Shown in pieces: positions 28,313-60,567 of a stretch of DNA of 64,000 bases. The first letter of the stretch is position 1, and each line of letters starts with the position of its first letter. The stretch covers positions 199,556 to 263,555 of the forward strand of contig MELF01000017.1 in NCBI GenBank assembly GCA_001767525.1. Reading direction: 5' to 3'. Below the pieces are notes generated by a model, which had not been told where the DNA came from, searched no databases, and worked only from the letters and a program-made list of their open reading frames with translations. The translations under genes and the position numbers were made by a program. This DNA comes from Acidobacteria bacterium RIFCSPLOWO2_12_FULL_68_19 (GTDB taxonomy: Bacteria > Acidobacteriota > Vicinamibacteria > Vicinamibacterales > UBA2999).

Positions 28313-29560
28313 CTAGACCTCGTTGACCTGATGCGAGCGAGCGGCAGCGCTCCGGCCCGCCAGGAGGCTACCGGCGTCCGCCGGATCGAGCGCCCGCAAG
28401 TCCGCGACGGCGAAGCGGCCGGCGCCGAGCTTGTGGTACGCGCGCATCGCGACCGCGATATGCGCGTGCAGCCACTGCGGGTCGACGAACAGCGCCGCCG
28501 TGTCGACGCCGAGCCGCGGCGCGAGCCACGTCATGCCGCCGCACGTCCCGACGAAGGCGCGCGCGCCCGCGGCAATCTGCGTCTGCACGCCGAGATTCGT
28601 CCGCGGCGTCATCCAGGGGCGGGCGCTGATGACGTCGGCGCCGTCGAACCGGTAGTCGGTATGGTCGTCTTCGAGGATGAGGCCCGTATCGAGCAGCACG
28701 ACCGGGAGGCGCTCCGCCAGTCCCGATACGATGCTCCTGAGCACGCCCCGAACATGCGGTGTGTCCGGGAGCGACTGCGCGCCATAGAACTTCACGGCGA
28801 TGTACTCCCGCGGCAGGAGCGCCGGATCGATGATCGGCGCGGCGACATGCGTGGTGAACCGCGTGTGCGCGTCGACGAATCCCATGGCCCGGTGTCCGGA
28901 CCAGTACAGCGTGAACAGCCGGTACATCAGTCCGGGGTGAATGACGTCGAACTCTCGGGTCCCGAGGCGCCCGGCCACGGCCGCGAGGATGTCGGCGTCG
29001 AGCGCGGACGGCTCGAAATGCTTGGTGAGACCCCGCTCGACATTGCGGCGCGCGAACTCGGCGGGATCGATGTGATCCCAGACCTCGACATACCTGGACG
29101 CCACGCCCTGATACCAGCTGGCCACGCCGCCGCGTGAGACGGCGACGAGACGGTCCTCCGGGAGATGGAACGCGGCTTTGACCCAGTGGAGGAACGGCAC
29201 CCAGTAGAGCGTCTCGAATCCCACCTCGGAGATCCACGGTCCTGCGACGAGGAGGCGCCCCCGTCCGACGATCGTCTCGAGCTCCTCTTCGATGTCCCAC
29301 ATCGTCCGGAAGAAGCCCCACTGCTCCTCGAGCTGGCGCTTCCGCCGGAGTGTCGTGCGCACGGGACGCCGGACGCGGCGGAACCAGCGCTTCACGACGT
29401 TGACCACGTCGTCGCGAACGCCCTCGCCGGCGCGGCGAACGCCGTGGCGCGCATCCGTGACCCCTTCCTGGCTCACCTTCGCCGCCCATCTGAGGCGACC
29501 GGTCACCTGCCGCAGCCGCTTGCGCGCGAGGTTGCCCGCCGCGCCCGGCCAGCTCGTCAC
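28313..29560 (-). CDS. Uncharacterised GPW-module protein (copy 3, with basic N-terminal extension)
   Basis: 415 aa: a lysine/arginine-rich region (about 10-75) is followed by the module, with GPWISEVGFETLYW (107-120), SRGG (142-145), IHPGLMYRL, YIAVKFYG, DTGLILEDDH (291-300) and FVGTCGGMTWLAP. GTG 29560 overlaps the stop of the upstream fusion gene, which itself ends in another copy of this module. The two copies are therefore adjacent, suggesting local duplication. No known family was recognised. Confidence 0.7.
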   Translation of the reverse strand: MTSWPGAAGNLARKRLRQVTGRLRWAAKVSQEGVTDARHGVRRAGEGVRDDVVNVVKRWFRRVRRPVRTTLRRKRQLEEQWGFFRTMWDIEEELETIVGRGRLLVAGPWISEVGFETLYWVPFLHWVKAAFHLPEDRLVAVSRGGVASWYQGVASRYVEVWDHIDPAEFARRNVERGLTKHFEPSALDADILAAVAGRLGTREFDVIHPGLMYRLFTLYWSGHRAMGFVDAHTRFTTHVAAPIIDPALLPREYIAVKFYGAQSLPDTPHVRGVLRSIVSGLAERLPVVLLDTGLILEDDHTDYRFDGADVISARPWMTPRTNLGVQTQIAAGARAFVGTCGGMTWLAPRLGVDTAALFVDPQWLHAHIAVAMRAYHKLGAGRFAVADLRALDPADAGSLLAGRSAAARSHQVNEV

Positions 29561-32220
29561 GTCCGGAGACCCTCCAGGACCGGCGAGGCGGCGCCGAAGC
29601 CCAGTCGCACGACGTCGACCGCACGGATGTCGAGCTCGACGAAGGCGCCGCACCGGAGCCCCGAGAAGACGCGCTTGGCCACTTCGAGGTGGTCGAAGCG
29701 AAAGCCCGAAGCGTGGGAGTAGAACGCCACGGTAGGAGTTCCGACGAGCGGCGCGAGATAGCAGAAGCCGCCGTAGGTGCCGACGAACGCCTCCGCGTGC
29801 CTGATGACCTGCGTCTGCACCGCCAGGTTGTCGATCGGGCGCATCAGGTGCTCGACGGTGTGGATGCGCCCCCTGAGCTCGGATGGAAAGTCGTCGTGAT
29901 CGTCGTACCGATCCGCCGTGTTGAGCAGCACCACGTCGATATGCCGCGCCAGGTCTGCGAGGAACTTCGCCGCAAACGCTCTGTTTGCCGCCGTGGACGG
30001 GAGCGCGACGTTGCCGTAGAACTTCGCGGCCACGTAGCGCGCGGGGAGCTGCCCGCGCAGCGCGAACGGCTCCATGGGCGGCAGCGGCGCGAAACTGGTG
30101 AACGTCTCGACGATCGTGACCGGGGCGCGCTGGAACCAGAAGTGCTCGAAGAGCCGGTACATCGCCGATGGGTGCAGGATCTCGGCGCCGTGGAAGCCTC
30201 GTGCGGCGGTCACCCGCGCGATGACCTCCCGGTCGAAGCTCGATACGTCGAGGTGCTTCATCCTGCCGGACTGCTCTCGAATCCGCTCCTCGTTCCGCCG
30301 GCGGAACTCCTCCGGCGTGTAATACGACAGGATGTCTTCATAGTTGGCCGTCAGGTGCGAATACCACGGTCCAGCCCCGCCGCGCGAGATGACCACGAGC
30401 TGCTCCGGATCGAGCTTCCCGTACGTCTTGGCCCAGGCGAGAAACGGAATCCAGTACAGGAGCTCGAACCCGGTTTCCGACAGCCACGGTCCGACGAGAA
30501 TCGGTTTGTCGCTCCGGCCGAGCAGCGTGACGAGCTCGCGCGTCTCGAGGGCCTCCGGGACGTCCCAGACCCACGACCGTTTGGCTGGATCGCGCTGGCG
30601 CCCGGGCTTCGGAGTGAGCGCCGACGGCGGAGGCGCCGCAACGGCGGACGGGCGCCTCGACCGGAGCTGGTGGATGGCGAATCGTTTGAGATCCCCGAGC
30701 ACCCGGCGCTTCCACCACTTGTAGTCCTTGCGGACGCGATTGAGGAGGTGCCTCCACCACAACTGGGTGCGCGTGCGCAGCGCGAGCAGCGCCGCGGCCG
30801 CGTACAACGGCGCCCGCAAGAAGAGATCGCCCCAACCCTGGCGCTCCGGCGCCGGCGGCGGCGCCGCGACGACTCGCTCGAGCTCGTCGACGAACAGCGG
30901 CGTCGCCGCCACCTCGGCGCCCATCGGACGCACGAACATCACGGCGAAGTCTCGCGACCGTGGATCGACCTCTCCCTCGGCTCTTAGCGACTCGGCGAGC
31001 AGTCGTGTGTGCTCGTCGAGCGACCGCGCAGCGCGCAGCAGCCCGTTGAGCAGGTACCGGAAGTGGAGCGTGCCCTCCTGATTCCTGGCCGAGATATCCG
31101 GCAGCAGGACGGTATGCGCGGGTCGTCCTACGACGGCCGTCTCGAGGAACGCGCTCGTATTCAGCCCGACGACGGCGGCGCTGTAATAGAGCGAATCGAA
31201 GTAATCCTCCTTCGACTCCGGGTCGACCGGATGGGCGCCCCAGAACGCCACGCCCCGGTACCCGGTCAGATCGATTCCGTGCCACTCCTTCAGACGGGCC
31301 GGATGCGGCCGGACGAGAATGCCGATGTCCTGGAGCCGCGGGTCGTCGCTCGACCGCAGCGCCTCGATCCAGTCGAGGACGAACGAGGGTTCATGGGCCG
31401 TGTTGTGGAAGAGCGCCGAGCAGATATACAGCACGAACGGCTTGTCCGGCGGGAGTCCGACGCGCTCGCAGAACGCCTCGCGGCTGCGCGACGGTCGGCG
31501 CCCCCACCACTGGTCGTAGCACTGCGCGCCCGTGACGATGACCTTCTCCGCAGGCACGCGGTGCATGTCGATGGCCTCGGTACGCTGCACGTTGTTCCAC
31601 ACGATCACCGCGTCCGGCATGAACCGCAGCAGCGACTTCGTCGAGAGGTGATCCCAGCTGCAGACCGGGAGCACCGTGCGCAAGCCCAGCGCCTTGGCGG
31701 CGCGCACGTGGTCGATTTGCGGCGATCCCAGATCGACCAGTGGCGTGACGAGCACCGCGTCGGGCTGATACGCCGCCATGAACCGCTCGGTCGCCGTCAC
31801 GGGCGGCAGCGCGCGCTCGAACGCCCGGAGGAGGCGCGCCAGCCGCTGGCGGCCGCGGTCGCTCCCGAAGAACGACAGCCGGACGAGCGCGAGCACGAGG
31901 CCCGGCGTCCGCTGTTTGGCGCGCGCCAGCAGATGTGGCGTGGTCGCGTACTGCGGCTCGAGGTAGCGCAGGTAGTCCAGTCCGTGTCGGATCCGCCGCG
32001 TCAGATCGAACCAGGCGCCGGCGTTCCGGACCGGCGACTCGCCCATCGAGAGCTGCTCGGGATATCGCGCCACCAGCCGCTCGACCATCTGCCGGCCCCC
32101 CATGGACTCTTCGACGTCGGCGACCATGTGTACGCGGTGCCCGCGCCGGGCCAGTTCTTCGATGGCGGACTCGAAATTCCGCAGGTACGTCCAGTGGCGG
32201 GCAAAGAACAGCAACTTCAT
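29557..32220 (-). CDS. Two-module protein: GT-B-like module fused to GPW module
   Basis: 887 aa. Residues 1-455 form the recurrent GT-B-like module: N-terminal TYLRNFES, CSWDHLSTKSLL (187-198), VWNN (207-210), TGAQ (230-233), RPHP (304-307), YFDSLYYSAAVVGLNTSA (340-357) and LHFRYL. RPHP and the NTSA/E-x-x-VVGRP region resemble TagF-type and capsule GT-B enzymes. A basic, alanine-rich linker (455-555) leads to a GPW module (575-887) with GPWLSETGFELLYW and FVGTYGGFCYLAP. The ATG at 32220 was chosen because every paralogue starts at this point. It is probably a bifunctional glycosyltransferase. Confidence 0.75.
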   Translation of the reverse strand: MKLLFFARHWTYLRNFESAIEELARRGHRVHMVADVEESMGGRQMVERLVARYPEQLSMGESPVRNAGAWFDLTRRIRHGLDYLRYLEPQYATTPHLLARAKQRTPGLVLALVRLSFFGSDRGRQRLARLLRAFERALPPVTATERFMAAYQPDAVLVTPLVDLGSPQIDHVRAAKALGLRTVLPVCSWDHLSTKSLLRFMPDAVIVWNNVQRTEAIDMHRVPAEKVIVTGAQCYDQWWGRRPSRSREAFCERVGLPPDKPFVLYICSALFHNTAHEPSFVLDWIEALRSSDDPRLQDIGILVRPHPARLKEWHGIDLTGYRGVAFWGAHPVDPESKEDYFDSLYYSAAVVGLNTSAFLETAVVGRPAHTVLLPDISARNQEGTLHFRYLLNGLLRAARSLDEHTRLLAESLRAEGEVDPRSRDFAVMFVRPMGAEVAATPLFVDELERVVAAPPPAPERQGWGDLFLRAPLYAAAALLALRTRTQLWWRHLLNRVRKDYKWWKRRVLGDLKRFAIHQLRSRRPSAVAAPPPSALTPKPGRQRDPAKRSWVWDVPEALETRELVTLLGRSDKPILVGPWLSETGFELLYWIPFLAWAKTYGKLDPEQLVVISRGGAGPWYSHLTANYEDILSYYTPEEFRRRNEERIREQSGRMKHLDVSSFDREVIARVTAARGFHGAEILHPSAMYRLFEHFWFQRAPVTIVETFTSFAPLPPMEPFALRGQLPARYVAAKFYGNVALPSTAANRAFAAKFLADLARHIDVVLLNTADRYDDHDDFPSELRGRIHTVEHLMRPIDNLAVQTQVIRHAEAFVGTYGGFCYLAPLVGTPTVAFYSHASGFRFDHLEVAKRVFSGLRCGAFVELDIRAVDVVRLGFGAASPVLEGLRT

Positions 32221-32271
32221 CCAGGTGCTCCAGCTATGGCCACGGACTGACACGTCGGCATGTGAGGCCAG

Positions 32272-34116
32272 TCACAGCGGGTGGCGCACGCCTCGACCGA
32301 CCGCGCTCTCGGCGCGACGCGCCAGGCGCTTGGCCGCCACCCCGGCGGTACGGAACGCCTTCGCGACTCTCCTGCTCGCCCGCCGAATCCGCCTGCGCCC
32401 TTCTCGAGAAGATTCGTACCAGACGCGGTACGCGCCCCGGCCCATCCGCCGGAAGCCGCTCATCGCGACGGTGCGCCAAGCCTCGCGAACTCTGAACGCC
32501 AGCGCCCATGCGCGGATCGCGGTCGTGACGAACGGCCGGACCCCGTACACCCAGAGCGGCCGATCCTCCGCCAGCGCTCTCGCCATACACGCCAGCACGA
32601 ACGCGGGCGGACCGAGAGGAGTCCACCACCACCGGGCGTCGCGTGGAAGGGGACGCGGAAGACGCGCCAGTTCCTCGATCGCACGCGCGAACACCGGAGC
32701 CGCCGGAGTGTCGATCCCATGCGGACGAACGAACCATCGCACGAACTGGTCGCCGGCCGCGCCGGCGCTCCTGTCGTCGGCAATCTGCGCCAGTTGTCGA
32801 ACGTGCTCGTCGAGGCTGGCGGCGGCCCGGACCAGCCCCGCGCCGCCGACGAGGTACTGAAAGTGGAGCGTGCCTTCCTGCGCGTGGACGAACTCGGCGG
32901 CCCGAACCGTGAACACCGGCCGTCCGACGATGGCCGCCTCGACTTGCGCGCTCGTGTTGATGCCGACGACCCCGGCGCTGTAGTACAGCGAGTCGAAATA
33001 GTCGCGGCGGAAATCCGGGGCGTTCGGGTCCGTTCCAATCGGCGGCCAGAGCGCGGTGTCGCCGAAATCGGTCGCCTCGAACGCCCGCCACTGGCGGGCG
33101 TTGGCAGGATGCGGCCGCACGAGCACGCCGAGCCGCGCCACCGCCGGGTCGGCGCTCGCACGGACGGCCGCCACCCACCGTTCGGCGAACGGGACCTCGT
33201 CGGGCGCGATGAACACCGAGGAGCCGACGTAGAGCACGAACGGGCGGTCGGGATCGAGTCCGACCATCCGGCAGAACTCCTCCCGCGACCGGCTCGGCCT
33301 TGCCTCGAACCACCGGTCGAAGAGCTGCGCGCCGGTAATGACGACCTGCTCGGGCGCAACGCCGTGCAACTCGACCGCCTCGCGCTTCTGCGCTTCGTTC
33401 CACAGGACGACGTGGTCCGGAATGACGCGGATGAGCCCCTTGCTCGTCAGATTGTCCCAGCTCGCCACGCACAGCGCGCTGCGGAAGCCGAGTCGGCGGG
33501 CGCACTTGATGTAGTCCACCTGCTGCGATCCGAGCTCGATGAGAGGCGTCACCAGCAGCAGGTCGGGATTGTGCTCGCGGACGAATGTCTCCAGCGCCCG
33601 GTTGGGCGGGATCAGGTGCTCGATCGCCGAGAGCGCGCCAGCGAGCGCTCTCCGCGCCACGGCGCTTCCGCCAGCCACGAGACGGATCCAGCGGCGATAG
33701 ACGTGGGGCACGCGCTTTTCGGCGCGCCCGCGCAGCGCCGCGGCATTTGCGAACACCGGATCGAAGAACCGGACGTAGTCGAGGAGAAGGCGGACCGTCG
33801 TCGCAAGGCTCTCCCACGCTTGCTCGCGTCGGTCGCGCGACCAGAGCGATGCGGCCGGCGCGCCGCTGCGCGTCGCCTCGCGGTCGCCCCGGGCGAGGAA
33901 GTCGCGCACGCTCTCCGGCCGCTCCGGCGTCGGACCGCAGGTCACGCGGGGCGAGCGCTCGGCCAGCCGTCTGGCGGTCACGTCTTCGCCGAGCTTCGTC
34001 CGGCTCACCTCGAACGCGACGTGCACGTCGTGGCCGGCCGCCGCCAGCGCCTGCAGCCCTTCGTCGTAGTACCGCACGAAGCCCGGGTGGAGCATCACGA
34101 ACAGGATGCGACTCAC
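32272..34116 (-). CDS. GT-B-like module protein with basic C-terminal tail
   Basis: This 614-aa protein has one complete GT-B-like module: HPGFVRYYDE at the N-terminus, SWDNLTSKGLIR, VLWNEAQKREAVELHG, TGAQLFDRWF, RPHP and DYFDSLYYSAGVVGINTSA. The C-terminal 100 residues are lysine/arginine-rich with hydrophobic spacing, as expected for peripheral membrane binding. GTG 34116 overlaps the stop of the TIGR04372-like gene by 4 nt. The open frame upstream of it is a shadow. Substrate unknown. Confidence 0.75.
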   Translation of the reverse strand: MSRILFVMLHPGFVRYYDEGLQALAAAGHDVHVAFEVSRTKLGEDVTARRLAERSPRVTCGPTPERPESVRDFLARGDREATRSGAPAASLWSRDRREQAWESLATTVRLLLDYVRFFDPVFANAAALRGRAEKRVPHVYRRWIRLVAGGSAVARRALAGALSAIEHLIPPNRALETFVREHNPDLLLVTPLIELGSQQVDYIKCARRLGFRSALCVASWDNLTSKGLIRVIPDHVVLWNEAQKREAVELHGVAPEQVVITGAQLFDRWFEARPSRSREEFCRMVGLDPDRPFVLYVGSSVFIAPDEVPFAERWVAAVRASADPAVARLGVLVRPHPANARQWRAFEATDFGDTALWPPIGTDPNAPDFRRDYFDSLYYSAGVVGINTSAQVEAAIVGRPVFTVRAAEFVHAQEGTLHFQYLVGGAGLVRAAASLDEHVRQLAQIADDRSAGAAGDQFVRWFVRPHGIDTPAAPVFARAIEELARLPRPLPRDARWWWTPLGPPAFVLACMARALAEDRPLWVYGVRPFVTTAIRAWALAFRVREAWRTVAMSGFRRMGRGAYRVWYESSREGRRRIRRASRRVAKAFRTAGVAAKRLARRAESAVGRGVRHPL

Positions 34117-35042: not shown

Positions 35043-35188
35043 GTCGAGATCAACCGTTCACGCTTCTCGCTTCCGGGTGCTGGGTTCGTGTTCGGGGTTC
35101 GGTTCAGAGTTCGGGGAACGCGAACCGAGACGCACAGAACCCAGAAGTGCGAACAACACGCTGACGACCCCGCTGCGGGTGTCCGACC
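35043..35188. repeat. Intergenic GTTCGGG-type repeat region
   Basis: The spacer holds irregular tandem copies of GTTCG/GTTCGGG between about 35082 and 35116, with TGGGTTC (35081-35087) mirrored as GAACCCA (35137-35143). No open reading frame of its own is convincing. The array could form a long imperfect hairpin between two minus-strand genes. I see no clear promoter boxes. Confidence 0.5.
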
Positions 35189-39095: not shown

Positions 39096-39096
39096 T

Positions 39097-39155
39097 GGAC
39101 CGCTATGCGGCTCGATGCGCGAATTCTGTACTCATTGTGACCCGCATAGCGGTCC
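39097..39155. promoter_or_regulatory. Perfect 14-nt inverted repeat before the formyltransferase start
   Basis: GGACCGCTATGCGG at 39097-39110 is mirrored perfectly as CCGCATAGCGGTCC at 39142-39155, with a 31-nt AT-richer loop. The proximal arm ends 1 nt before the ATG of the formyltransferase, where a Shine-Dalgarno sequence would be expected and none is seen. It may be a paired operator or an RNA hairpin controlling initiation. Confidence 0.6.
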
Positions 39156-39157
39156 CA

Positions 39158-39174
39158 GGCGCGCGACGCGCGCC
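39158..39174. repeat. 17-nt perfect palindrome
   Basis: GGCGCGCG and CGCGCGCC flank a single A. It lies between the inverted repeat at 39097-39155 and the terminator-like hairpin at 39193-39233, so three separate dyads are packed into 140 nt of spacer. Its role is unknown. Confidence 0.55.
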
Positions 39175-39192
39175 AAGAGGTACTGGCGGCCG

Positions 39193-39233: not shown

Positions 39234-39237
39234 TGGG

Positions 39238-40953
39238 TCACTCACCCTGGTTGCCCGGCAGCTGGCCTCGCCACAGTCCCATGACGTAGAGAACGCGATA
39301 GACGGTCACGGCGATCCGGTGACGCGCTTTGCGCATGGTGCTCTTGACCACCTTGCCGGCCCGCATCGCCGTGTCGCGGCGGCGCCGCCAGGTCTTGCGC
39401 TGCATCTTGTCGCGCTGCCGCTTCTCCTTCTCGCGCTGGCGCGCCGTCATCGATCGGGAGGTGGTGGCCTCGTGCTCGTCCCAGGCATCGGCGCGCTCGT
39501 CGTTCATCAACCACCGCCCCAGGCCGACACGCGACCACGCTGCGGCGGCGGTCACCGGCGGACCGAGCCAGAGTCTCGGGGCGAGCGACGGATCGACGCC
39601 CGCCCCCTCGCGGTGCAGCCCCTCGAGCGCGTCCGCAAATGCCGGCGTGGCCGGCGTGTCGAAGCCGCCGGGCCGCACGAACGTCTCGAGGAACTGCCGG
39701 CTCCGCCGGTCGCGCGACCCGTCGAGCGCCACGGCCTCGGCCAACTGCACGAAGTGCGCGTCGAGGTCGGCAGCCGTTCTGAGCGGGCCTCCCCGGTCCC
39801 CCGTGAGGTACCGGAAGTGAATCATCTCCTCCTGATGCATCCGGTACTCGGGCAGCGTGAAGGTCAGCACCGGCCGCCCGACGATCGCCGCCTCGACAAA
39901 GGCCGTCGTCACCAGGCCAATCACGGCGGCGCTGTAGTACAGCGAGTCGAAGTAGTCGTCCCGCGACTCCCGGTCGATCGGGTTCCGGCCGTGAAACGCG
40001 ACGTTCGTGAACCGGTCGAGCCGGACGCCGTTCCATTCCTTCACCCGCTCGGGATGCGGGCGCACCAGCACGCCGAGGTCCCGCAGCTGCGGATCCGGAT
40101 GGCGGCGCAGCGCTTCGATCCACCGCACGACCAGCGTCGGCTCAGGCGGCTCCGGCGTCGGCGTGAGAGCGGAATGCACCCACAACACGAACGGACGGTC
40201 CGCCCGCAGGCCAACCGCGCCGCAGAACGCCTCGCGGCTGCGCTCCGGCGTGCGCGTGAACCACTGGTCGTAGCACTGGGCGCCGGTCAGGACCACGCGA
40301 TCGGCCGGCAGCCCGTGCATCTCGATCGCCTCCCGCCTCTGCACGTCGTTCCAGACGATCACCTGGTCTGGCGCAACATGGATGAGCGCCTTGCTCGACA
40401 GGTGATCCCAGCTGAGGATGGCGGCCGACACCGGCAGCTTCAGCGCTCGCGCCGCCTTCAGCAGGTCGAGCTGCTGTGAACGCGAGTAGGTCAGGGCGAT
40501 GAGGACGAGCACGTCTGGTCCGTGGCGGCGCAGGTAGTCCACCATGCGCTCGCTCGTCGGCATGAGGCGTTCGAAGCGCGTGAGCGCGGCGCGGGTGCCG
40601 CGGCGGCCGACGACCGGCGCGTGCGCCGCCCACCGGACGATGCGGGCCGTGCGCTCCTCGGCGCGCACCCGCAGCTTGTCCGGGTACCGCGGCTCGAGGG
40701 CACGCACGTAGTCGAGCGCTACGCGCATGCGTCGGGCTGCGTCGAACCACGGCTCGTCCTCGAGCGACGGCATCAGGTCCCACGTGACGCCGGGATGCTC
40801 GGAGGCCAGACGCGCGACGAGCTGCTCGCCCCCGAGCGCCTCCGGCTCCTCCGCCGCCAGGTGGACCCGGTGCCCCCGCGAGGCGAGCTCCCGCACGACG
40901 GAATCGAAGTTCCGATACTGCGCGAAGTGCAATCCCGCGAAGAGAACCTTCAC
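39238..40953 (-). CDS. GT-B-like module protein with lysine/arginine-rich tail
   Basis: 571 aa. The GT-B-like module shows QYRNFDSVVRELASRGHRVHL, LSWDHLSSKALIHV, VWNDVQRREAIEMHG, TGAQCYDQWF, RPHP and DYFDSLYYSAAVIGLVTTA; here the usual N-T-S reads V-T-T. The last 90 residues are extremely basic (repeated KR/RK, then a short hydrophobic helix YRVLYVMGLW), which suggests membrane docking. It is followed by the hairpin region 39096-39237. Closest in motif detail to the N-terminal half of the 887-aa fusion. Confidence 0.75.
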   Translation of the reverse strand: MKVLFAGLHFAQYRNFDSVVRELASRGHRVHLAAEEPEALGGEQLVARLASEHPGVTWDLMPSLEDEPWFDAARRMRVALDYVRALEPRYPDKLRVRAEERTARIVRWAAHAPVVGRRGTRAALTRFERLMPTSERMVDYLRRHGPDVLVLIALTYSRSQQLDLLKAARALKLPVSAAILSWDHLSSKALIHVAPDQVIVWNDVQRREAIEMHGLPADRVVLTGAQCYDQWFTRTPERSREAFCGAVGLRADRPFVLWVHSALTPTPEPPEPTLVVRWIEALRRHPDPQLRDLGVLVRPHPERVKEWNGVRLDRFTNVAFHGRNPIDRESRDDYFDSLYYSAAVIGLVTTAFVEAAIVGRPVLTFTLPEYRMHQEEMIHFRYLTGDRGGPLRTAADLDAHFVQLAEAVALDGSRDRRSRQFLETFVRPGGFDTPATPAFADALEGLHREGAGVDPSLAPRLWLGPPVTAAAAWSRVGLGRWLMNDERADAWDEHEATTSRSMTARQREKEKRQRDKMQRKTWRRRRDTAMRAGKVVKSTMRKARHRIAVTVYRVLYVMGLWRGQLPGNQGE

Positions 40954-40989
40954 TGGACCGTTCCCATCATCTTCTGTTCGGACGACCCA

Positions 40990-51447: not shown

Positions 51448-51448
51448 A

Positions 51449-52408
51449 TCACGGATCGGTGATGGCGCTCCGCGACGGCCGCCCGGACGCCGGCCGCCAC
51501 CGCGCCATCCGCGACGCGACCTTGACCCGCCAGTCCGATTTCGGCCGAACCACATCGCGAACGATGGACCACCACAACTGCATCGCGGCGTAACGCACGG
51601 CCGCCAGCCGACCGAATGCGGGCCTGCCGCTCCCGCGCACGGCGAAGACCCACAGCAGCGCCGCCCAGTGCTGCAGGTGTGGCGGAAGATGGGCATGGAA
51701 CGGCACGCCGCCGGGGAAAAACGCCTTGAGCTGCCGCCGCAGGTCGAACTTGCTGATGAACTCGCGGTACCAGAGCACTTCCGGCACCTGCCGGAACTGG
51801 CCGAACAGCGCCAGCGCCAGCAGTACGTAACGGTCGGGGAGAATCACGCGGCGGAAGACGCCGGCCGCCTCGAGCGCCTCGGCTCGCACGAGACCGTAGA
51901 TCATGTCGCCCGACCGCATGTATCGCGCGGCCCGCCGCATCCGTTCGGCCCGGCTGCTGATGCCGAACGTCTCGAAGACCTTGACCTTCTCGGTTGTACG
52001 GGCCCCCTGGGAGGTGAGCTGTACGTTGTGCGGATAGGCCAGCACAACCTCCGGATGCGCGTCGAGCACCGCCACCATCTCCTGCAGCCAGCGTGCATGC
52101 CAGACATCGTGATCGCTGACCCACGCGAAGTACTCGGACTGCGGGTACAGCCGCCGCGCCCGATCGAAGACGCGCCGCCAGTTGCCGATCATGCCGAGGC
52201 GCGTGCCGTTCGCCTCGTACGTGATGCGCGGAAATTGACCCGCGTACCTCTCGACGATCGCCGCCGTCTCGCGCGAGGCGGCATCGTCGACGATCACCAG
52301 CGCGAAATCCTGACAGGTCTGCGACAGGAGTGACTCTAGCGTCCGAGGCAGCGCATCGGGCCGGTTGTACGCAGGCAGTCCCAGGACGACGCGCGGCGAG
52401 GCGCTCAT
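51449..52408 (-). CDS. Family 2 glycosyltransferase
   Basis: 319 aa. VVLGLPAYNRPDALPRTLES, IVDDAASRETA and YFAWVSDHDVWHARWLQ define the same GT2 subgroup as the gene at 49.4 kb; RLGMIGNWRRVF is likewise shared. ATG 52408 overlaps the preceding fusion-gene stop by 4 nt. The genes from 49.4 to 54.9 kb alternate GT2 and NanM-like methyltransferase, which suggests duplication of a two-gene unit. Donor unknown. Confidence 0.85.
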   Translation of the reverse strand: MSASPRVVLGLPAYNRPDALPRTLESLLSQTCQDFALVIVDDAASRETAAIVERYAGQFPRITYEANGTRLGMIGNWRRVFDRARRLYPQSEYFAWVSDHDVWHARWLQEMVAVLDAHPEVVLAYPHNVQLTSQGARTTEKVKVFETFGISSRAERMRRAARYMRSGDMIYGLVRAEALEAAGVFRRVILPDRYVLLALALFGQFRQVPEVLWYREFISKFDLRRQLKAFFPGGVPFHAHLPPHLQHWAALLWVFAVRGSGRPAFGRLAAVRYAAMQLWWSIVRDVVRPKSDWRVKVASRMARWRPASGRPSRSAITDP

Positions 52409-54945
52409 ACGCGAAGCCGTCTCCAGCCCAGGAAGTACGTCCGTTCAGCCGCACCCTCGCCGGAGGGCAGCGACAGCCGGCGTGCGAGCGACTCCGGGGC
52501 GCAGACCGGGTGCAGCCAGTACAGACGATCGAGAGCAGGCCGCACCGGCGCCGTGAAGGAATCGCCGGGATCGCCGGGCGGGCAGATCGAGAACACGTAC
52601 CGGGAGCCGAGATCGTATGCGCGCTGCAGGTGCAGGCCGACCCGCGATGGGCTCAGGCGTTCCAGCGCCATCAAATCGACGGTCAGGTCGAGCGACGGCG
52701 GTGTCAGGCCCGCCACGGCGCTTTCAGGGGCGAAGGCGAAGTCGACGGCGTCCCAGTCCCGCCAGAACGACGCCGGAGCCGCGGGATCGTAGAACCGGAA
52801 CCGGGCCGCGGGAAAGAGCGTCATCAGATACACGGCGGAGAGCAGAAACAGTTCCGGCCGGCCCGTGATCAGGTAGGTGACCTCGGGGCACAGCGTCTTG
52901 AAGTGATAGGCGAACCCGCCCCATCCGCCGCCGATCTCCCAGACCGTCCGCCTGGCCCCGCCGCGAAACTCCTTGATCAGCGCGGCGTCTTGCAACAGCG
53001 AGATCACCCGGAAGAACCGCAGCGTATCCTCGTTGTACCGCCTGCCGCCGCTGTTGAAGCCAAAGGCACCGAGCGCTGGCGCCTCGTCGACCCACAGCGC
53101 GCCGTCGCCGCGCGCGAGGAGCCGCCGCAGGTCGCGTTCGAAAATGAATCGTACCTTGTGGTCGACGTGCTCGTAGTCGGCCGCAGACACGCCGGTAATC
53201 GGGGCCGCCTGCCGGCGCAGCGCAGCAATCGTCTCCGGTCCTGCGCTCCACAGCGGTTCGAGTGCCGCCAGCATGCGCTGCTCGGACGGCGTCACGCCGT
53301 CCACGACCGACATCGCGTCGCGCAGGCGGCGCACCTCGTCCCGCACGCGGAGGTAGTGGCCGAACGCCCGGGACGCGGCGTCGGCCGCCCAGGCTGCCTC
53401 CGCTGCCGCCGCCCGCTCACGGGCGCCGCGCTGCTCCTGATCGAGGCGCTTCGCAATCGTCCGTTGTTCCTCCGAGTCCTCCTGCGCCTGCCGCGCCGTC
53501 TCGACGGCCGCTGCGAGCCGGCCAAGCGCAGGACGCGCGAGGAGAGCCCACCACGTCCCGTGACGCAGCCGGCGCCGGCGGCGGGTGGCGGTCGCCTCGA
53601 GTGCGGCGACGAGCCGGGGCGTCGCGGGCTCGTCGATCCCATGCGGCCGTACGAAGGCTTCGACGAACCGCCGGCCCGGCTGCGCCGCGGCGGCGGGATC
53701 CTGCAGGGCCGTCTCCAGCTGGGACACGTGCTCGGTCATGTCTGACGCGACGTGCAGCAATCCGCCGTTGACCTCGCGCAGATGTCGAAAATGTAGCGTG
53801 CCACCCTGCGTGTTGCGGAACTCCGGGGCGAGCAGCGTAAAGACGCCGCGGCCGACGATCGCGCTTTCGATGAGCGCGCTGGTGTTGACGCCCACCACGG
53901 CCGCGCTGTGGTGGATGGAATCGTAGTAGTCGGCACGCGTGTCGTCGTCCACGGGGTTGCCCCCGCAGCGCGGCCAGACGACGACATCGTCGAGGTCGCT
54001 GAGATCGACGTCCTGCCAGCGCTCCGCGTTCTGTGGATGCGGCCGCACGAGCACGCCCGCGCGTCGCAGCGCTCCGGACGTGCGGATGTCCCGCACCCAC
54101 TGCCGGACGAACGGCAGCTCGTGCCCCGCGATGAACCGCGACGAGCAGAGATACAGCACGTACGGCCGCCGCGGATCGAGACCGACGCGGGCACAGAACG
54201 CCTCGCGCGACGCGCGGGGCCTCCAGGTGAACCAGTGGTCGTACGGCGCGGCGCCGGTCACAACGACGCGTTCGGCGGGAACGCGATGGAGGGCGACCGC
54301 CTCGACCTTCATCGGCTGATTCCAGACCGTCACGACATCAAGGACGTCGTGAATGAGGCCTTTGTTGGTGAGATTGTCCCAGCTGTAGACGCACAAGCCC
54401 ACAGGGATGCCGAGCGCACGGGCGGCGCGGAGGTATTCCGACTGCGGAGACCCGGGCTCCACGAGCGGCGTCACCAGGACGAGGTCGGGCCGGCACTCGC
54501 GGATGAAGGCGGTGATCGCCGGGTCGGGAGGCAGCGCGCGGTCGCAGGATCGCAGGAGCCATCGCAGCAGCGCCCGACCCGAACGGTTGTCCGCGAGGCG
54601 CCGCCAGCCGCGCGAGGCGGCGAACACCGGCGCGTTCTGCTCCGCTCGCCACCGCAGCTTCGACGCGTCGCGGTATTCCGGCCGGAAATAGCGGAGGTAA
54701 TCGAGCCCCCTGCGCAGCTCGAGGCCAAGGAGGGACAGGCGCGTCTCCGCCGCCGATGGGGGAACGGCCGTATGCATGATGGCGGGACAGCGGCGGCAGA
54801 GGCGCCCCATCACGTCGGTCGGGTCCAGCACCTGATGCATCTCGGCGACAACGTGCACGTGGTGTCCACGTTCGGCCAGCAGCCGCAGCGTGGACTCGAA
54901 ATTCCGCACGTACACCGTGCTGCGCATGAAGAACAGGATGTTCAT
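52405..54945 (-). CDS. Fusion of GT-B-like module and NanM-like O-methyltransferase
   Basis: 846 aa. GT-B-like module 1-450: VYVRNFESTLRLLAERGHH, SWDNLTNKGLIH (188-199), VWNQPMK, TGAAPYDHWF, RPHP (301-304), YYDSIHHSAAVVGVNTSA. A coiled-coil linker (about 475-545) leads to the methyltransferase (550-846) with WEIGGGWGGFAYHFKT (669-684), LDLTVDLMALERL and FLGWRRLRV. The ATG at 54945 overlaps an FkbM remnant's stop by 4 nt. Its first 45 nt match the start of the truncated gene at 58.1 kb at 39 positions. A transferase that also methylates its product is likely. Confidence 0.8.
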   Translation of the reverse strand: MNILFFMRSTVYVRNFESTLRLLAERGHHVHVVAEMHQVLDPTDVMGRLCRRCPAIMHTAVPPSAAETRLSLLGLELRRGLDYLRYFRPEYRDASKLRWRAEQNAPVFAASRGWRRLADNRSGRALLRWLLRSCDRALPPDPAITAFIRECRPDLVLVTPLVEPGSPQSEYLRAARALGIPVGLCVYSWDNLTNKGLIHDVLDVVTVWNQPMKVEAVALHRVPAERVVVTGAAPYDHWFTWRPRASREAFCARVGLDPRRPYVLYLCSSRFIAGHELPFVRQWVRDIRTSGALRRAGVLVRPHPQNAERWQDVDLSDLDDVVVWPRCGGNPVDDDTRADYYDSIHHSAAVVGVNTSALIESAIVGRGVFTLLAPEFRNTQGGTLHFRHLREVNGGLLHVASDMTEHVSQLETALQDPAAAAQPGRRFVEAFVRPHGIDEPATPRLVAALEATATRRRRRLRHGTWWALLARPALGRLAAAVETARQAQEDSEEQRTIAKRLDQEQRGARERAAAAEAAWAADAASRAFGHYLRVRDEVRRLRDAMSVVDGVTPSEQRMLAALEPLWSAGPETIAALRRQAAPITGVSAADYEHVDHKVRFIFERDLRRLLARGDGALWVDEAPALGAFGFNSGGRRYNEDTLRFFRVISLLQDAALIKEFRGGARRTVWEIGGGWGGFAYHFKTLCPEVTYLITGRPELFLLSAVYLMTLFPAARFRFYDPAAPASFWRDWDAVDFAFAPESAVAGLTPPSLDLTVDLMALERLSPSRVGLHLQRAYDLGSRYVFSICPPGDPGDSFTAPVRPALDRLYWLHPVCAPESLARRLSLPSGEGAAERTYFLGWRRLRV

Positions 54946-55046
54946 CTCGCTGTGGATTGGATGTCGTCCCGCACGAAGACGCCGTACCACATGGCGAACG
55001 CGCCCACCTTGGTTTTGAGGACGATTCTCGAGTCGAGCCGGAGACC
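54942..55046 (-). pseudogene. C-terminal remnant of an FkbM-type methyltransferase
   Basis: The last 34 codons, GLRLDSRIVL...AMWYGVFVRDD, align with the very end of the 823-aa GT-B/FkbM fusion (GFRLDSKVVS...AIWYGVFVRDG). Their stop overlaps the next ATG by 4 nt exactly as the intact gene's stop does at 58.1 kb. No SAM motif or FkbM core lies upstream in any frame, so the gene is broken. Confidence 0.7.
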
Positions 55047-55305
55047 GGACGAAAAGACAGGAATGTATCGCGTCCTGCACGACTTCGAGTGGGGCCATCT
55101 TGCACAGGTATCGCCGAACGAGATCGCGCTTGATGCCAAGCACCCGGACCGCCTGCCGCCCGACCACAGGCACGACACGCTGAAGAACCGCATGGGTGTC
55201 TGGCATCCGAAGGAAGGATCATGCGTCTCGGCACAGCCCCTCCCCGATGCGGCACAGCCGCCGACGCATCGGCGTGGCGCATGAAGAAGAATTCGCATAC
55301 GTGAG
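55047..55305 (-). other. Interrupted gap with possible unknown gene fragment
   Basis: About 260 nt without an intact gene. In one minus frame (about 55060-55206) the translation VLGIKRDLVRRYLCKMAPLE is protein-like, not shadow-like, with K, I, Y, M and C residues, then runs out of frame into the FkbM remnant. It may be the tail of another deleted gene. No promoter or terminator is evident. Confidence 0.4.
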
Positions 55306-56832
55306 TCACGGCCCGTGACCGGCAGCGTTCGTCCTCCGCGCCGCGCGGTCCCGCTTGAGGCCCTTCATCGATCGTTTCCGGCGCGGCTCGAGGACCGACG
55401 CCACCACTGCAGGCAACAACGAGAGATAGCGTGCGCTCGTCGACGTCCGCATCGGAAGCGGCGCCGGCACACTGCACAGATCTTCGATCGCTTGGACGAG
55501 ACGAGGCGTCGCCGGCGTATCGAGCCCGTACGGCCTCACGAACATTTCCACGAATCGAGAGAACTGTCGACTCACCTCAGGATCCGGCCTGAGCGCCTCG
55601 GCGAGCTGCTCCAGATGCTCATCGAACGACCGCGCGACCCGCAGGAACCCAAACTCGTGATTCACGAGGTAGTGAAAGTGAACCGTGCCTTCCTGTGTCT
55701 CCTTGAAGCGTTCGTCCAGTATGGTCAGCGCCTTTCGCCGAAGGATGGCGGCGTCGATCAGCGCGCTCGTGTTGATGCCGACGACCGCGGCGGCGTGATG
55801 GATGGAGTCGAACAGGTCCTGTCTATCGGCGGAGGTCATCGGGTTCGCACCGTCGCGTGGATACATGACGAGGTTGTCCGGGCAGTCGTTCCGGAGCGGC
55901 ACCCAGCAGTGCACGTTCTGCGGATGTGGCCGGATGAGGACGCCAGCGCTCCGCAGCGCCGTATCGGTGGCGGAGCGTACGCGGGAGATCCATTCACGCG
56001 CGAACGTCGATTCGTCCGACGAGATGAACGTCGACGAGCCGACGTACAGCACATACGGCCGGGAGGCGTCGAGGCCGATGCGGCCGCAGAACTCGCGTCG
56101 GTCGCTCGGGATCGACGTGAACCACTGATCGTACGCCTCGGCGCCAGTCACCACGACGCGGGCAGCAGGCACAGCATGGATCCGAACAGCCTCGTCGGCC
56201 TGGAGGCGATTCCACACCGCCACCATGTCGGGCATGACGCAAATCTGCCCCTTGTTCGTGAGATTGTCCCAGCTATGTACGAGTAGCGCCGTGCGGATGC
56301 CAAGCGCCCGCGCCGCCTTGACCAGTTCGGTCTGCGGCGAGCCTAGGTCAACCAGCGGCGAGACCACGAGCACGTCGGGACGGACCCCACGGAGGTACTC
56401 GACGACGGCACGGTCCGGAGGAGCAGCCCACTCGAGCCCATGGCATATCCGCGCAAAAGAGCGACCGGAGGCGAACCGCCGGACAAGCGGTAACGCCGTG
56501 ATGTGCCGCGCCACTACCGGCACCCGCGCCGCCGCACGCTGGCGCAGCTTCGCCGTGTGCCGGAACTCCGGCCGAAAGTAACGGGCGTAGTCGTGCATGC
56601 TGCGGATCCAATTGACCCATGGTGTCCAGAACACCGACGGAAAGGACCGCACGTCGCACTGAACGCCGTGCTGCGTCTCGTACTCGTGGAGCAGCACACT
56701 TGCTTCACTCTTTGCCTTCTTGAGATGGTTGAAGAGGAGCTGAACCTCATGCCCGCGCTCCGCCAGTAGCCGGATTGTGGAGTCGAAATTCCGCAGGTAG
56801 CCAGGGTGAGCGAGCGAAAACAGGACGTTCAT
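55306..56832 (-). CDS. GT-B-like module protein (stand-alone)
   Basis: 508 aa with a single module: HPGYLRNFDSTIRLLAERGHE, HSWDNLTNKGQICV, VWNRLQADEAVRIHA, TGAEAYDQWF, RPHP, LFDSIHHAAAVVGINTSA and VHFHYL. A short basic tail follows. It is coupled by a 4-nt overlap to the GT32 gene, and this pair lies between two halves of a disrupted fusion gene. Codon and base use look slightly less GC-rich than in the flanking fusions, though I did not compute this. Confidence 0.75.
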   Translation of the reverse strand: MNVLFSLAHPGYLRNFDSTIRLLAERGHEVQLLFNHLKKAKSEASVLLHEYETQHGVQCDVRSFPSVFWTPWVNWIRSMHDYARYFRPEFRHTAKLRQRAAARVPVVARHITALPLVRRFASGRSFARICHGLEWAAPPDRAVVEYLRGVRPDVLVVSPLVDLGSPQTELVKAARALGIRTALLVHSWDNLTNKGQICVMPDMVAVWNRLQADEAVRIHAVPAARVVVTGAEAYDQWFTSIPSDRREFCGRIGLDASRPYVLYVGSSTFISSDESTFAREWISRVRSATDTALRSAGVLIRPHPQNVHCWVPLRNDCPDNLVMYPRDGANPMTSADRQDLFDSIHHAAAVVGINTSALIDAAILRRKALTILDERFKETQEGTVHFHYLVNHEFGFLRVARSFDEHLEQLAEALRPDPEVSRQFSRFVEMFVRPYGLDTPATPRLVQAIEDLCSVPAPLPMRTSTSARYLSLLPAVVASVLEPRRKRSMKGLKRDRAARRTNAAGHGP

Positions 56833-57836
56833 TCGGCCGGGGGTGTGCTCAGCGACTTCTGGAGCCGCTTGCGTTCCGCGCGCTCGAGCTTCCCCTGTCT
56901 CTCTAGGGTCTCGAGCCGCAGCGTCAGGCGGTCGATTCCGCGGTCCAGCCGCCCGAGGCGTCTGTGAATCTGCTCTAACATGTGCAGCTTCTTCGCGATC
57001 CTGAGGAGTGCCGGTATGATGCCGAGCTCACGCCGCTCATTGCCGTGGAACTGATCGCCCGACTGGGCATTCGCCGAAGACTCCGGCTGGCCGTATCTCG
57101 ACGAAAGCTCCTGCAGCCGTGCGCGTAGCTGCCCGGTATCGGACAGCTTCAGCACCGCGTTCACCTCCCGCACGACACCCAAGAGTTCGTTCTGCATCTC
57201 GCGGAGCCGCTCTTCGGCCACCCGCGCCGCCTTGCGAAACCCCTCCTCGTCCTTCCACGAACGCTCGACGTGATGAATCGCGAACGCCCGCGACCGCTGC
57301 TCGACGTTCAGAGGATAGAACACCCACGGCTCGAAGACCTTGACCTCGGGATGTCCGAGGAGGACGCGGTTCATCAGAAGTGGACCGGTTGCTTCCTTGT
57401 CGTACCCGTGACACTCGCGCGGGCGGCATGCCCGAATGACTTCCAGCACGATGGGGTGCTGCGGCACGGCGCCGATCACGGCGTTGTTGGCCGATCCGAG
57501 CTTCGTATCCGCTACGAAGAAATCGAGGCCGTTGATCAGCTTGTCGATCGGCCGTAGACATTCGATGTCGGTGTCCACGTACACGCCGCCACTCGCATGG
57601 ACGACCTCCAACCGAAGCATGTCCGAGCGCTCGACCGGATTGCGCAGGCGGTCACGAATCTCGGGCCTTATTAGCGTGGCGGGCAGATTCTCCTCCGTCC
57701 AGAGCCGGAATTCCCAGTCCGGATGGTGCTCCGTCCACGTCTCGCGATACCGCACGAATTCATCAGGCAGCGGCCTTTGGCCGAGCCACACCTGATGAAT
57801 GATCTTCGGAATCATCCCTCCCATTCTGGCCATCAC
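56829..57836 (-). CDS. Family 32 glycosyltransferase (DXD sugar-binding, OCH1-like)
   Basis: IPKIIHQVWLGQRPLPDEF is the GT32 opening, WEFRLWTEENLP and SDMLRLEVVHASGGVYVDTDIECLRP contain the DxD (DTD) donor site. The C-terminal 120 residues are a predicted coiled coil (KLERAERKRLQ). Start candidates are GTG 57836, which overlaps the remnant's stop, or ATGs at 57833, 57824 and 57815; the last gives the family-typical MIPKII. It adds a hexose or hexosamine, often in capsule assembly. Confidence 0.86.
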   Translation of the reverse strand: MMARMGGMIPKIIHQVWLGQRPLPDEFVRYRETWTEHHPDWEFRLWTEENLPATLIRPEIRDRLRNPVERSDMLRLEVVHASGGVYVDTDIECLRPIDKLINGLDFFVADTKLGSANNAVIGAVPQHPIVLEVIRACRPRECHGYDKEATGPLLMNRVLLGHPEVKVFEPWVFYPLNVEQRSRAFAIHHVERSWKDEEGFRKAARVAEERLREMQNELLGVVREVNAVLKLSDTGQLRARLQELSSRYGQPESSANAQSGDQFHGNERRELGIIPALLRIAKKLHMLEQIHRRLGRLDRGIDRLTLRLETLERQGKLERAERKRLQKSLSTPPAE

Positions 57837-58099
57837 ATGAGGCGCGGCGAGTAGAGCGCCAGCCGCACATCGCGGCCAAGCAATCCCCAGCCGCTGTCCC
57901 GGGGTTCGTTGTCCCTCTCAGCAAAGCTCGGGTATTCGCTGGCAAGCTGTCGGGCGATGCCGATTGGATCCAGCTGGAGGCACCTGGAGGTGCCGCGGAA
58001 CGCGATATGGACGTGATGGCCGCGATCACAGAGCAGGCGCAGCGCCGAGTCGAAGTTCCGGACGTACACGGTGCTCCGCATGAAGAACAGGACCTTCAT
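57833..58099 (-). pseudogene. Truncated N-terminal fragment of a GT-B-like module
   Basis: 88 codons: the start MKVLFFMRSTVYVRNF and the segment through GWGLLGRDVRL align with residues 1-80 of the intact modules, then the sequence breaks off in unrelated residues and stops. The SWDN, RPHP and NTSA blocks are all missing. ATG 58099 overlaps the intact fusion's stop by 4 nt. Its 5' 45 nt match the start of the 846-aa fusion gene at 39 positions. Confidence 0.78.
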
Positions 58100-60567
58100 C
58101 GTCCGGCTCCGTGACCGTCTCGCACGAACACGCCGTACCAGATCGCCTGCTCCCCCCTCCTGGTCGTGGAGACGACCTTCGAGTCCAGCCGGAACCCGTG
58201 CCGCTCGAGCATGCCGGTGACAGCGTCGGAAGCCGGGGTCGCCACTTCCACGAGCATCGATCGCAGAGCCTGCGACGACAGGGTGCACGAGGCGCCCTCG
58301 AGCACGGCCAGCTCTCCTCCGTCGACGTCGAGCTTGATGTGCGTGGGCGGCGGCAGATGCAGCAAGTTGACGACGTCATCCAGACGGAACGTCATGACCG
58401 GCTGCTCGTACCGGACCGGACCGTCACCGGACGCGCCGGGACCCAGGACGTGGCGGGCAGCGCCAGGTTCCAGATTGCGAAGCCCGAGGACGGTCATGCC
58501 GGTGACGCTCGAGAGCGCCACCGGGACGGGCGTCACCTGCCCGGCTACTTCGTTGAGGACGACGTTGGCGCAGAGCGTCGCCACGGTTGCGTAACTCGGC
58601 TCGAATGCGACCACCCGCGCGCCGCCGTCCGGCTTCTTCGCGGCGACGAGGGAATAGGCGCCCACGTTGGCGCCGATGTCGTAGAGCACGTCCCCCTGCC
58701 CGATGCTGTCGTGGATCCACTCGATCGTGAACGGCTCCTTGCTGCACGCGCGCAGCCGGAACTCCTCGGCGTCGGTCATGACGCGCATGTAGATGTCCGC
58801 GTGCGCGTAATCGAGCTTCCGCGGCCTGGTGGCGGAATGCAGCTCGATGTACGACAACGGCGGGAACTCGTCGAAGGTGGCGCGAAGGAAGCTCCTCCGG
58901 TCCACTTCGCCCAGCCGGCGGAAGCCCGCGACGAGGGCCGGCATGGTCTGCAGCTCCTTCGCCTGGTCGGCGGCAGCCCGCCGGGCGCGCTTCTCGGCCT
59001 CCTCCAGCGCCTGCTCCGCGCGCCGCGCCCGCTCCTGGGCGTCGCGGGCGCGGCGCTTGACCTTGCTCAGCACGCGCTGCGCCGCCTGAGTCGAGGCCGC
59101 GATCTCGGCCTCGCGCTCGAGCACGGCGGCGCGGCGAGCCAGCCGCGGGCGGGCGAGCGGCGCCCACAGGGGCTCCCGATGGCGCCGCGCCGGCCGGCGC
59201 GCGAGCCGCTCGAGCGCGTCGACCAGACGTGGGGTCGAGGGCGCATCGATCCCGAACGGTCGGACGAACGCCTCCACAAAGCGTCGCCCCCGGCCGTCGT
59301 CCTCGTGCGGCGTCTGCACGGCTGACTCCAGCTGCGCGAAGTGCTCGGCGAAATCGTGCGCCTCGTGCACCAGTCCGCCGTTGGCGCTGCGAAGATGGTG
59401 GAAGTGCAGCGTGCCGTCCTGGGTGTCCCGGAACTCCGGCGCGAGCACCGTGTAGACCGGACGCCCGAGAATGGCGCTCTCGATCTCGGCCGTCGTGTTG
59501 ACGCCCACGACCGCCGCACTGTGGTAGATCGAGTCGAAGTACGCGCTGCGCGTCTCGATATCCACCGGAGCTGCCCCCGCCGGCGGCCACACGGCGATGT
59601 CGCCGAGACTGCTGAGATCGACGTTCTGCCACTGGTCCGCATTCTGCGGGTGCGGCCGCACGAGGATTCCCACGCGCCGAAGCGCCGCCGAGGGCGACTG
59701 GCGAACCTGCGCCGCCCAGCTGCGGACGAACGGCACCTCTTCGGGAGCGACGAATTTCGACGAACACACGTACAGGAGGTACGGCCGATCGGCAGGCAGC
59801 CCGACGCGTGCGCAGAACGCCTCCTGCGTCGTACTGGGGCGCCAGTCGAACCAGTGGTCGAACGCCGCCGCGCCCGTCACGGCCACACGGCGGGCGGGAA
59901 TGGCGTGCAGCGTCATGGCCTCGTGTTTCATCGCCTCGTTCCACACGGCGACGAGGTCGACCGGCCCGTGGATCAACCCCTTGTTGGTCAGGTTGTCCCA
60001 GCTGGCGACGCACAGCGCGGTTCGCACGCCAAGCACCCGGGCGCTGCGGATGAACTCGGTCTGGGGGGAGCCGGGCTCGATGAGCGGCGTGACCGCGAGC
60101 ACGTCGGGGCGCGCCTTGGCGACGTAGGCGTCGATGGCGGGGTCGCGCGGGATCGCACGATCCATGAGCTGCAGCGATCGCATCAGCAGCGTCCGCCCGA
60201 GCGGAGTGGCCGTGAACCCCTGCTGCGCCCGATCGAGGATCGCCGGCGCCACCTCACGCGTGGCGCGCTCCCGGAGCTTCGGCGCGTCCCGGTACTCCGG
60301 CGCCAGGTACCGGAGGTAGTCGACGCCCCGGCGCAGTTCGCGCGCCAGCAGCCCCCATCCGTCCGTCCGCGCCGGAATGTCGCCGCAGGAGAAGTTCGAG
60401 TACTGCTCGGCCAGGCGCCGGGAGACGTCGATCGGATCGAGCAGCGGGTGTCTCTCTCTGTTCTGATAGGCGACGTGCACGCGGTGTCCGCGCTCGCACA
60501 GCAGCCGGATGGTCGATTCGAAGTTTCGAACGTATCCGGAATGACGCATGACGAAGAGCAGTCTCAT
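58096..60567 (-). CDS. Fusion of GT-B-like module and FkbM-type methyltransferase
   Basis: 823 aa. GT-B-like module 1-455: GYVRNFESTIRLLCERGHR, SWDNLTNKGLIH (189-200), VWNEAMKHEAMTLH, TGAAAFDHWF, RPHP (304-307), YFDSIYHSAAVVGVNTTA. A coiled coil (about 476-541) connects to an FkbM methyltransferase (557-823) with DIGANVGAYSLVAA (630-643) and THIKLDVDGGE (742-752). Start ATG 60567. It probably transfers a sugar and O-methylates it. Fusion of these two activities is not one I know from a characterised enzyme. Confidence 0.82.
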   Translation of the reverse strand: MRLLFVMRHSGYVRNFESTIRLLCERGHRVHVAYQNRERHPLLDPIDVSRRLAEQYSNFSCGDIPARTDGWGLLARELRRGVDYLRYLAPEYRDAPKLRERATREVAPAILDRAQQGFTATPLGRTLLMRSLQLMDRAIPRDPAIDAYVAKARPDVLAVTPLIEPGSPQTEFIRSARVLGVRTALCVASWDNLTNKGLIHGPVDLVAVWNEAMKHEAMTLHAIPARRVAVTGAAAFDHWFDWRPSTTQEAFCARVGLPADRPYLLYVCSSKFVAPEEVPFVRSWAAQVRQSPSAALRRVGILVRPHPQNADQWQNVDLSSLGDIAVWPPAGAAPVDIETRSAYFDSIYHSAAVVGVNTTAEIESAILGRPVYTVLAPEFRDTQDGTLHFHHLRSANGGLVHEAHDFAEHFAQLESAVQTPHEDDGRGRRFVEAFVRPFGIDAPSTPRLVDALERLARRPARRHREPLWAPLARPRLARRAAVLEREAEIAASTQAAQRVLSKVKRRARDAQERARRAEQALEEAEKRARRAAADQAKELQTMPALVAGFRRLGEVDRRSFLRATFDEFPPLSYIELHSATRPRKLDYAHADIYMRVMTDAEEFRLRACSKEPFTIEWIHDSIGQGDVLYDIGANVGAYSLVAAKKPDGGARVVAFEPSYATVATLCANVVLNEVAGQVTPVPVALSSVTGMTVLGLRNLEPGAARHVLGPGASGDGPVRYEQPVMTFRLDDVVNLLHLPPPTHIKLDVDGGELAVLEGASCTLSSQALRSMLVEVATPASDAVTGMLERHGFRLDSKVVSTTRRGEQAIWYGVFVRDGHGAGR

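Follow-up and report, generated by a model that had tools for sequence, protein, structure and literature searches.

Descriptions of bacterial polymers usually involve only a small number of transferases, and enzymes known to transfer legionaminic (Leg) or pseudaminic (Pse) acid are few. In Tannerella forsythia, the Pse5Am7Gra transferase GtfS and TFUB4_00887, which transfers a Leg derivative, are TagB-domain GT-B enzymes encoded in nonulosonic acid (NulO) loci (PMC6120980, PMC6388019, PMC7439481), while KpsC, WbbB and KrkA (GT107, GT99 and GT140) are multi-module proteins that build polymers from CMP-ulosonic acid (Kdo) donors (PMC12887879). Here, we describe a 64,000-nt stretch of contig MELF01000017.1 from Acidobacteria bacterium RIFCSPLOWO2_12_FULL_68_19 (hereafter the window), in which a predicted glycosyltransferase module is repeated in diverged copies between 29.6 and 60.6 kb. 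Like GtfS and TFUB4_00887, the modules are GT-B-type putative transferases of a NulO glycan locus that carry an HP motif, but whereas each T. forsythia cluster encodes a single enzyme of this kind, the module family comes in 6–12 copies with fixed fused partners. KpsC, WbbB and KrkA in turn contain two transferase modules each, whereas here about ten modules per locus are joined by a second, GT9-like family, and the modules have no Pfam match to the capsule families.

The initial annotation had reported nine complete copies of the module and one fragment in this span, and the nine copies are indeed present and intact (Table 1). All are encoded on the minus strand, comprise about 470 residues and can be aligned over approximately 470 columns, with around 65 invariant positions. 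When the 4.2-Mb genome was searched with a profile built from the nine, exactly these nine, the fragment (57.7 bits) and one further full copy, J (433 bits), were retrieved, the latter being located 21 kb past the window (C17:284942-286381) and followed by an FkbM-like domain. The fragment is part of a duplicated junction between modules I and G and not a functional module. The motifs singled out at the outset turned out to be near-invariant among 179 full-length members: SWD is present in every one, RPHP in 172 and GxNT[ST] in 163, and WN, E215, G231, R301, H385 and F431-R433-P434 are similarly conserved. No window module looks dead, since the key residues are kept in all nine, with the exception of a valine replacing N354 of GxNT in module C, which is shared by the orthologue of C in a relative from another genus of the same family (G258).

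The GT-B fold proposed from the motifs was borne out by an AlphaFold2 model of the module, built from a 70-member alignment (predicted local distance difference test score, pLDDT, 93.6; predicted template modelling score 0.92), which contains two Rossmann-like domains in GT-B arrangement. Foldseek and VIA-align matched it to many GT-B chains with Z values of 20–23 over approximately 300–346 residues, including WecB/NeuC-type epimerases (22–23), MurG (21), TarL with CDP-ribitol (20.6) and the Kdo transferase WaaA (20.1); these values are too close together for the donor to be chosen from the fold. A relationship to NeuC beyond the fold was rejected, given that the two profiles share only the phosphate-turn stretch. 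In agreement with the initial view that no known family could be assigned, none of the curated Pfam families convincingly matched the modules, apart from a sub-threshold Glyco_transf_4 match on module G, and PHROGs gave no match. At E 0.1, the module proteins showed no similarity to the Pfam families of bacterial sialyltransferases or capsule Kdo transferases (a search of Pfam, not of CAZy), comparison with solved structures by sequence (9-row and 70-row profiles) yielded chance matches only, and nothing specific emerged from a viral fold library or from plasmid searches. The sole curated family matched by most modules is NCBIfam NF046086 (BFO_1060 family glycosyltransferase), a remote relative reached by 62 of 70 members at E<=1e-3 (best 9e-13), with scores of 20–49 bits (best 48.8, for the double protein D-E) against a curated cut-off of 200, which no protein of the whole genome exceeds. 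Judged by sequence and model, the modules form a GT-B glycosyltransferase family without earlier description.

The domains to which the modules are fused had been correctly identified as GPW on A and F, a NanM-like methyltransferase on G, FkbM on I and a second module in the D-E double. They are not interchangeable, however, as had been claimed, but follow the module lineage across genera. For A and F (GPW), D (second module), G (NanM) and I and J (FkbM), the partner is shared with the nearest relatives from other species, while B, C and E have no partner either in the window or in those relatives, and a tree of 179 leaves requires 18 changes of partner state as compared to 52–61 in 200 shuffles. 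In G258, the order A-B-C-DE-F-G-I and the same partners are kept, within a region in which almost every gene of 14.1–60.6 kb occurs in the same order with 50–84% identity. Orthologous modules of the window and G258 are 66–77% identical, whereas the window copies are only 37–59% identical among themselves, which led us to reject recent tandem amplification and, together with the conserved order and partners, indicates that the copies are old, distinct and retained. As the same set, order and fused helper domains persist in a relative from another genus, each copy probably has its own fixed job, and the retention of distinct copies fits one function per slot. An assembly line in which each protein would add and modify one position of a long repeat unit, as originally suggested, is compatible with fixed slots and fixed partners; several copies are fused to predicted modifying enzymes, but GPW is predicted to be a second transferase and not a modifying enzyme. 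Outside the module family, a methyltransferase-GT2 fusion (35189-37330) has a counterpart in G258 that matches the GT2 half only, a genuine partner change in a different family.

Multiple copies of the module are also found in other genomes. A single scan of 84,980 species genomes identified 314 coding places with relatives of the module, and the best 68 loci belong mostly to metagenome-assembled genomes (MAGs) of Acidobacteriota, but also to Chloroflexi, Acidimicrobiia, Alphaproteobacteria, Desulfobacterales, Gemmatales, Auribacter and one cyanobacterium. Where the family occurs, 6–12 copies are usual (seven out of eight other genomes counted, from several phyla), the cyanobacterium having one. 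Within the phylum of the window, the true family was found in just 6 out of 297 genomes, each with at least five copies. The cultured Tistlia consotensis (L057) is among the module-bearing strains. Double-module proteins recur, and locus L035 encodes three modules in one protein. In several Acidobacteriota MAGs we also observed a distant, NF046086-like single-copy homologue (59–134 bits), which precedes the array by a few kb (L033:6007-8133, L036:5558-7330, L039:5739-7298, L041:5756-7300 and others).

The GPW domain, with its N-terminal GPWxxExGxExLYW-like signature, occurs five times in the window (three stand-alone, two fused) and 103 times in the best 68 loci, 41 of these fused behind a module. 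Full-strength GPW was found in exactly the six module genomes among the 297 of the phylum. A structural model of one stand-alone protein (25474..26487; pLDDT 94.8) adopts a GT-B fold of the GT9 type, with heptosyltransferase II (1psw; Z 14.5, 237 residues, 3.6 A) as the closest match, followed by 3tov (Z 13.8), and with TibC (Z 11.6) among the others. GPW thus folds like the GT9 heptosyltransferases and TibC but has its own N-terminal signature and, except for one of 47 members matching PF01075 at E 4e-4, no profile match to them; it has no Pfam family of its own, and no solved relative was found by sequence. Homology between GPW and the module was rejected, as their profiles lack similarity. 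GPW represents a second GT-B family without earlier description, resembling ADP-heptosyltransferases. In protein F, part of the C-terminal half of the GPW domain (47049-47890) is missing; as the G258 orthologue shows the same loss, the degenerate form is conserved and perhaps non-catalytic.

Genes for the synthesis of CMP-activated NulO lie in the same locus as the modules (Table 1), and the window also contains a PseC/LegC-like aminotransferase and a LegB-like dehydratase, both under their cut-offs. Within the phylum, a true NeuB is encoded at most 5 kb from a module in six out of six module genomes, against a background of 82 NeuB-containing genomes out of 297 (Fisher p 4e-4, ignoring shared descent). 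Genomes with distant homologues only have NeuB in 20 out of 23 cases (p 2.5e-10, with the same proviso), 10 of them within 25 kb. Across phyla, each of the 15 module genomes checked encodes NeuB above 70 bits, in most cases only a few kb from a module. Moreover, in the small loci L086, L080, L078, L065 and L074, from cyanobacterial, alphaproteobacterial, Desulfobacterales, Gemmatales and Auribacter genomes, one or two modules stand amid genes for NeuB1, SDR, aldehyde dehydrogenase, a CMP transferase (NeuA2) and transketolase, although not every one is present in each; in the cyanobacterial L086, the single module is directly beside NeuB. Given this association across phyla and the NulO genes around small module loci, genomic context makes CMP-nonulosonic acid the most likely donor. 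The remote NF046086 match of 62 of 70 members also speaks for this donor, as that family probably includes GtfS and TFUB4_00887. An unusual CMP-ulosonic acid pathway is suggested by the cassette at 9676-18287, some genes of which are also found next to single modules in several phyla; we found no relevant literature on NulO glycans in Acidobacteria or on transketolase in NulO pathways. A second region of this genome (G000, C47:33312-51202) encodes several NeuB homologues and no modules.

We consider it rather probable that the modules are position-specific CMP-NulO transferases building a complex surface glycan, probably exported by an ABC transporter, with GPW as a second transferase. The family, its fold and copy number, the fixed partners, the conserved order and the association with NeuB and GPW are observed here, and the donor, acceptors, order of addition and export route are inferred from them. 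The NeuC/NeuB/NeuA-type enzymes of the locus would make a CMP-activated nonulosonic acid (a sialic, legionaminic or pseudaminic acid, or an ulosonic acid related to these), which each module would add to one set acceptor of the growing glycan on the cytoplasmic side. GPW would add a heptose-like sugar, probably from an ADP- or other NDP-activated donor, so that module-GPW fusion proteins would add two residues; the nucleotidyltransferase at 23847 is a possible supplier of an ADP- or CDP-sugar for this step. The fused NanM and FkbM methyltransferases would act on the newly attached residue, capping or decorating it, and the Wzm/Wzt-type transporter would probably export the product. It is possible, if doubtful, that about ten position-specific NulO transferases and several GPW enzymes, in conserved order and with fixed methyltransferases, make one large ulosonic-acid-rich heteropolysaccharide with one module per position, a widespread glycan class without earlier description.

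Several points weigh against NulO transfer by the modules. UDP-GlcNAc 2-epimerases are the nearest structural matches of the model, and the fold by itself is uninformative on the donor. Although the HP motif of bacterial sialyltransferases is present as RPHP, their D/E-D/E-G motif has no conserved position among the 179 members (at most five at any column). Polysaccharide loci often encode NeuB, the association statistics ignore shared descent, and in two of the 15 module genomes no NeuB was seen near the module. SpsB, a TagB-domain protein of the Bacillus subtilis Leg locus, is dispensable for Leg transfer (PMC7439481), so that a location close to NulO genes is no proof of the donor. The similarity to NF046086 covers only part of the module (approximately residues 148–271) and is far under the 200-bit cut-off. 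BFO_1060 was not found by name in the literature, and it is likely the strain-92A2 orthologue of GtfS on map position only: interpolation of locus tags (from PMC7014623) gives a position of about 1.13 Mb in strain 92A2, bordering the glycosylation cluster at 1,135,922-1,166,078 (PMC6120980).

Alternatively, the modules could use ordinary UDP-, GDP- or TDP-sugars and merely be located in loci that also make nonulosonic acids. UDP/GDP-donor GT-B enzymes (MurG with Z 21, PimA and PglA) are indeed among the best fold matches and the locus contains many other sugar genes, but the NeuB association extends to all 15 module genomes and holds in single-module loci of several phyla, down to the module adjoining NeuB in L086, and we regard this explanation as unlikely. 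The initial annotation had compared the modules to TagF, and as TagF/TarL-like transferases of CDP-glycerol or CDP-ribitol they would form a teichoic-acid-like phosphodiester polymer. This likeness stands for the GT-B fold (TarL, Z 20.6), and the HP motif and S/T-rich phosphate turn of TagF/TarL are similar to those of the modules; a TagD/RfaE-type nucleotidyltransferase, moreover, is encoded at 23847 and recurs near modules in 16 out of 43 genomes. It does not extend to profile level, as no module protein matches Glyphos_transf at E 0.1 and the TagF-type WHG occurs in 4 of 179 members; the SWD of the modules may stand at its place, which is a lead only. The genomic company also differs. The RfaE domain II profile gives the nucleotidyltransferase a better score than that of glycerol-3-phosphate cytidylyltransferase, and the single-module loci L078, L080 and L086 have NulO genes and no such enzyme, which makes CDP-polyol transfer improbable. 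Finally, a role of the modules as nucleotide-sugar 2-epimerases or hydrolases of the NeuC/WecB kind, as their top fold matches (Z 22–23) might suggest, is very improbable, considering that a separate true NeuC is present, that the profile overlap with NeuC is confined to the phosphate turn and that ten diverged copies fused to transferases or methyltransferases suit transfer better than sugar-nucleotide supply.

Module H and the GT32 gene next to it are absent from G258, where I continues directly into G. At 54946-58099 of the window, this piece is flanked by a 189-bp direct repeat (72% identity, E 2e-26) that consists of the end of an FkbM domain and the start of G, and appears to be a lineage-specific insertion via the duplicated junction. 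Among the other genes, a 573-amino-acid protein (19272-20993) has neither a Pfam match nor a counterpart in G258, and a 306-amino-acid protein (34113-35033), likewise without Pfam match, corresponds to a homologue in the equivalent position of G258 (54%). No Rfam RNA family was detected in the window.

Table 1. Coordinates of modules, GPW domains, NulO genes and associated features in the window.
Feature	Position	Strand	Evidence
Rest of NeuB1 cassette: unknown 589-aa protein, HAD hydrolase, transketolase-like protein, cytidylyltransferase, aldehyde dehydrogenase, SDR	9676..17214	-	
PseF-like CMP-NulO cytidylyltransferase	14089..14814	-	TIGR03584, 102 bits, cut-off 206
NeuB1, NulO synthase	17211..18287	-	TIGR03569, 288 bits, cut-off 400
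Stand-alone GPW transferase	20974..22062	-	GPW profile
RfaE-domain-II/TagD-like nucleotidyltransferase	23847..24329	-	TIGR02199, 67 bits, under cut-off
Stand-alone GPW transferase (modelled)	25474..26487	-	GPW profile, model
NeuB2, NulO synthase	27245..28246	-	TIGR03569, 302 bits, cut-off 400
Stand-alone GPW transferase	28313..29560	-	GPW profile
Module A (30803-32220) + GPW GT9-like transferase domain (29560-30513)	29557..32220	-	G258 orthologue 67% identical, same fusion
Module B, no partner	32272..34116	-	G258 orthologue 70% over module
Module C, no partner	39238..40953	-	Profile and alignment; G258 orthologue
NeuA-like cytidylyltransferase + methyltransferase fusion	40990..42675	-	PF02348 and PF13489
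NeuC, UDP-GlcNAc 2-epimerase	42672..43853	-	TIGR03568, 379 bits, above cut-off 236
Double module in one protein, D (45636-47052) + E (44125-45549)	43834..47052	-	Same double in L019, L020, L024, L025
Module F + GPW domain with part of C-terminal half lost	47049..49388	-	Lost form also in G258
Module G + NanM-like sugar O-methyltransferase	52405..54945	-	TIGR04371, 38 bits, cut-off 44
Spacer with remnant FkbM C-terminus, one copy of duplicated I/G junction	54946..55305	-	Repeat comparison
Module H, no partner, no G258 orthologue	55306..56832	-	Profile and alignment
GT32-type glycosyltransferase (Gly_transf_sug, DXD), inserted together with H	56829..57815	-	Pfam; missing in G258
Fragment, copied start of G, other arm of duplicated I/G junction	57833..58099	-	57.7 bits to module profile
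Module I + FkbM methyltransferase	58096..60567	-	PF05050, TIGR01444
Wzm-like ABC-2 permease (61722-62606) + Wzt-like ATPase (62590-63888)	61722..63888	-	PF01061, PF00005

Collectively, a large GT-B family with an old, slot-specific expansion and a second partner family, neither described before, is real and coherent, and its NulO donor is probable. If this holds true, about 300 relatives from one scan, without a Pfam entry and in sets of 6–12 diverged copies per genome, would represent many candidate NulO transferases with distinct specificities, for which the single-module loci offer a minimal system to study donor specificity. Unusually complex ulosonic-acid glycans would then be produced by uncultured Acidobacteriota as well as by further bacteria from soil, groundwater and the sea.

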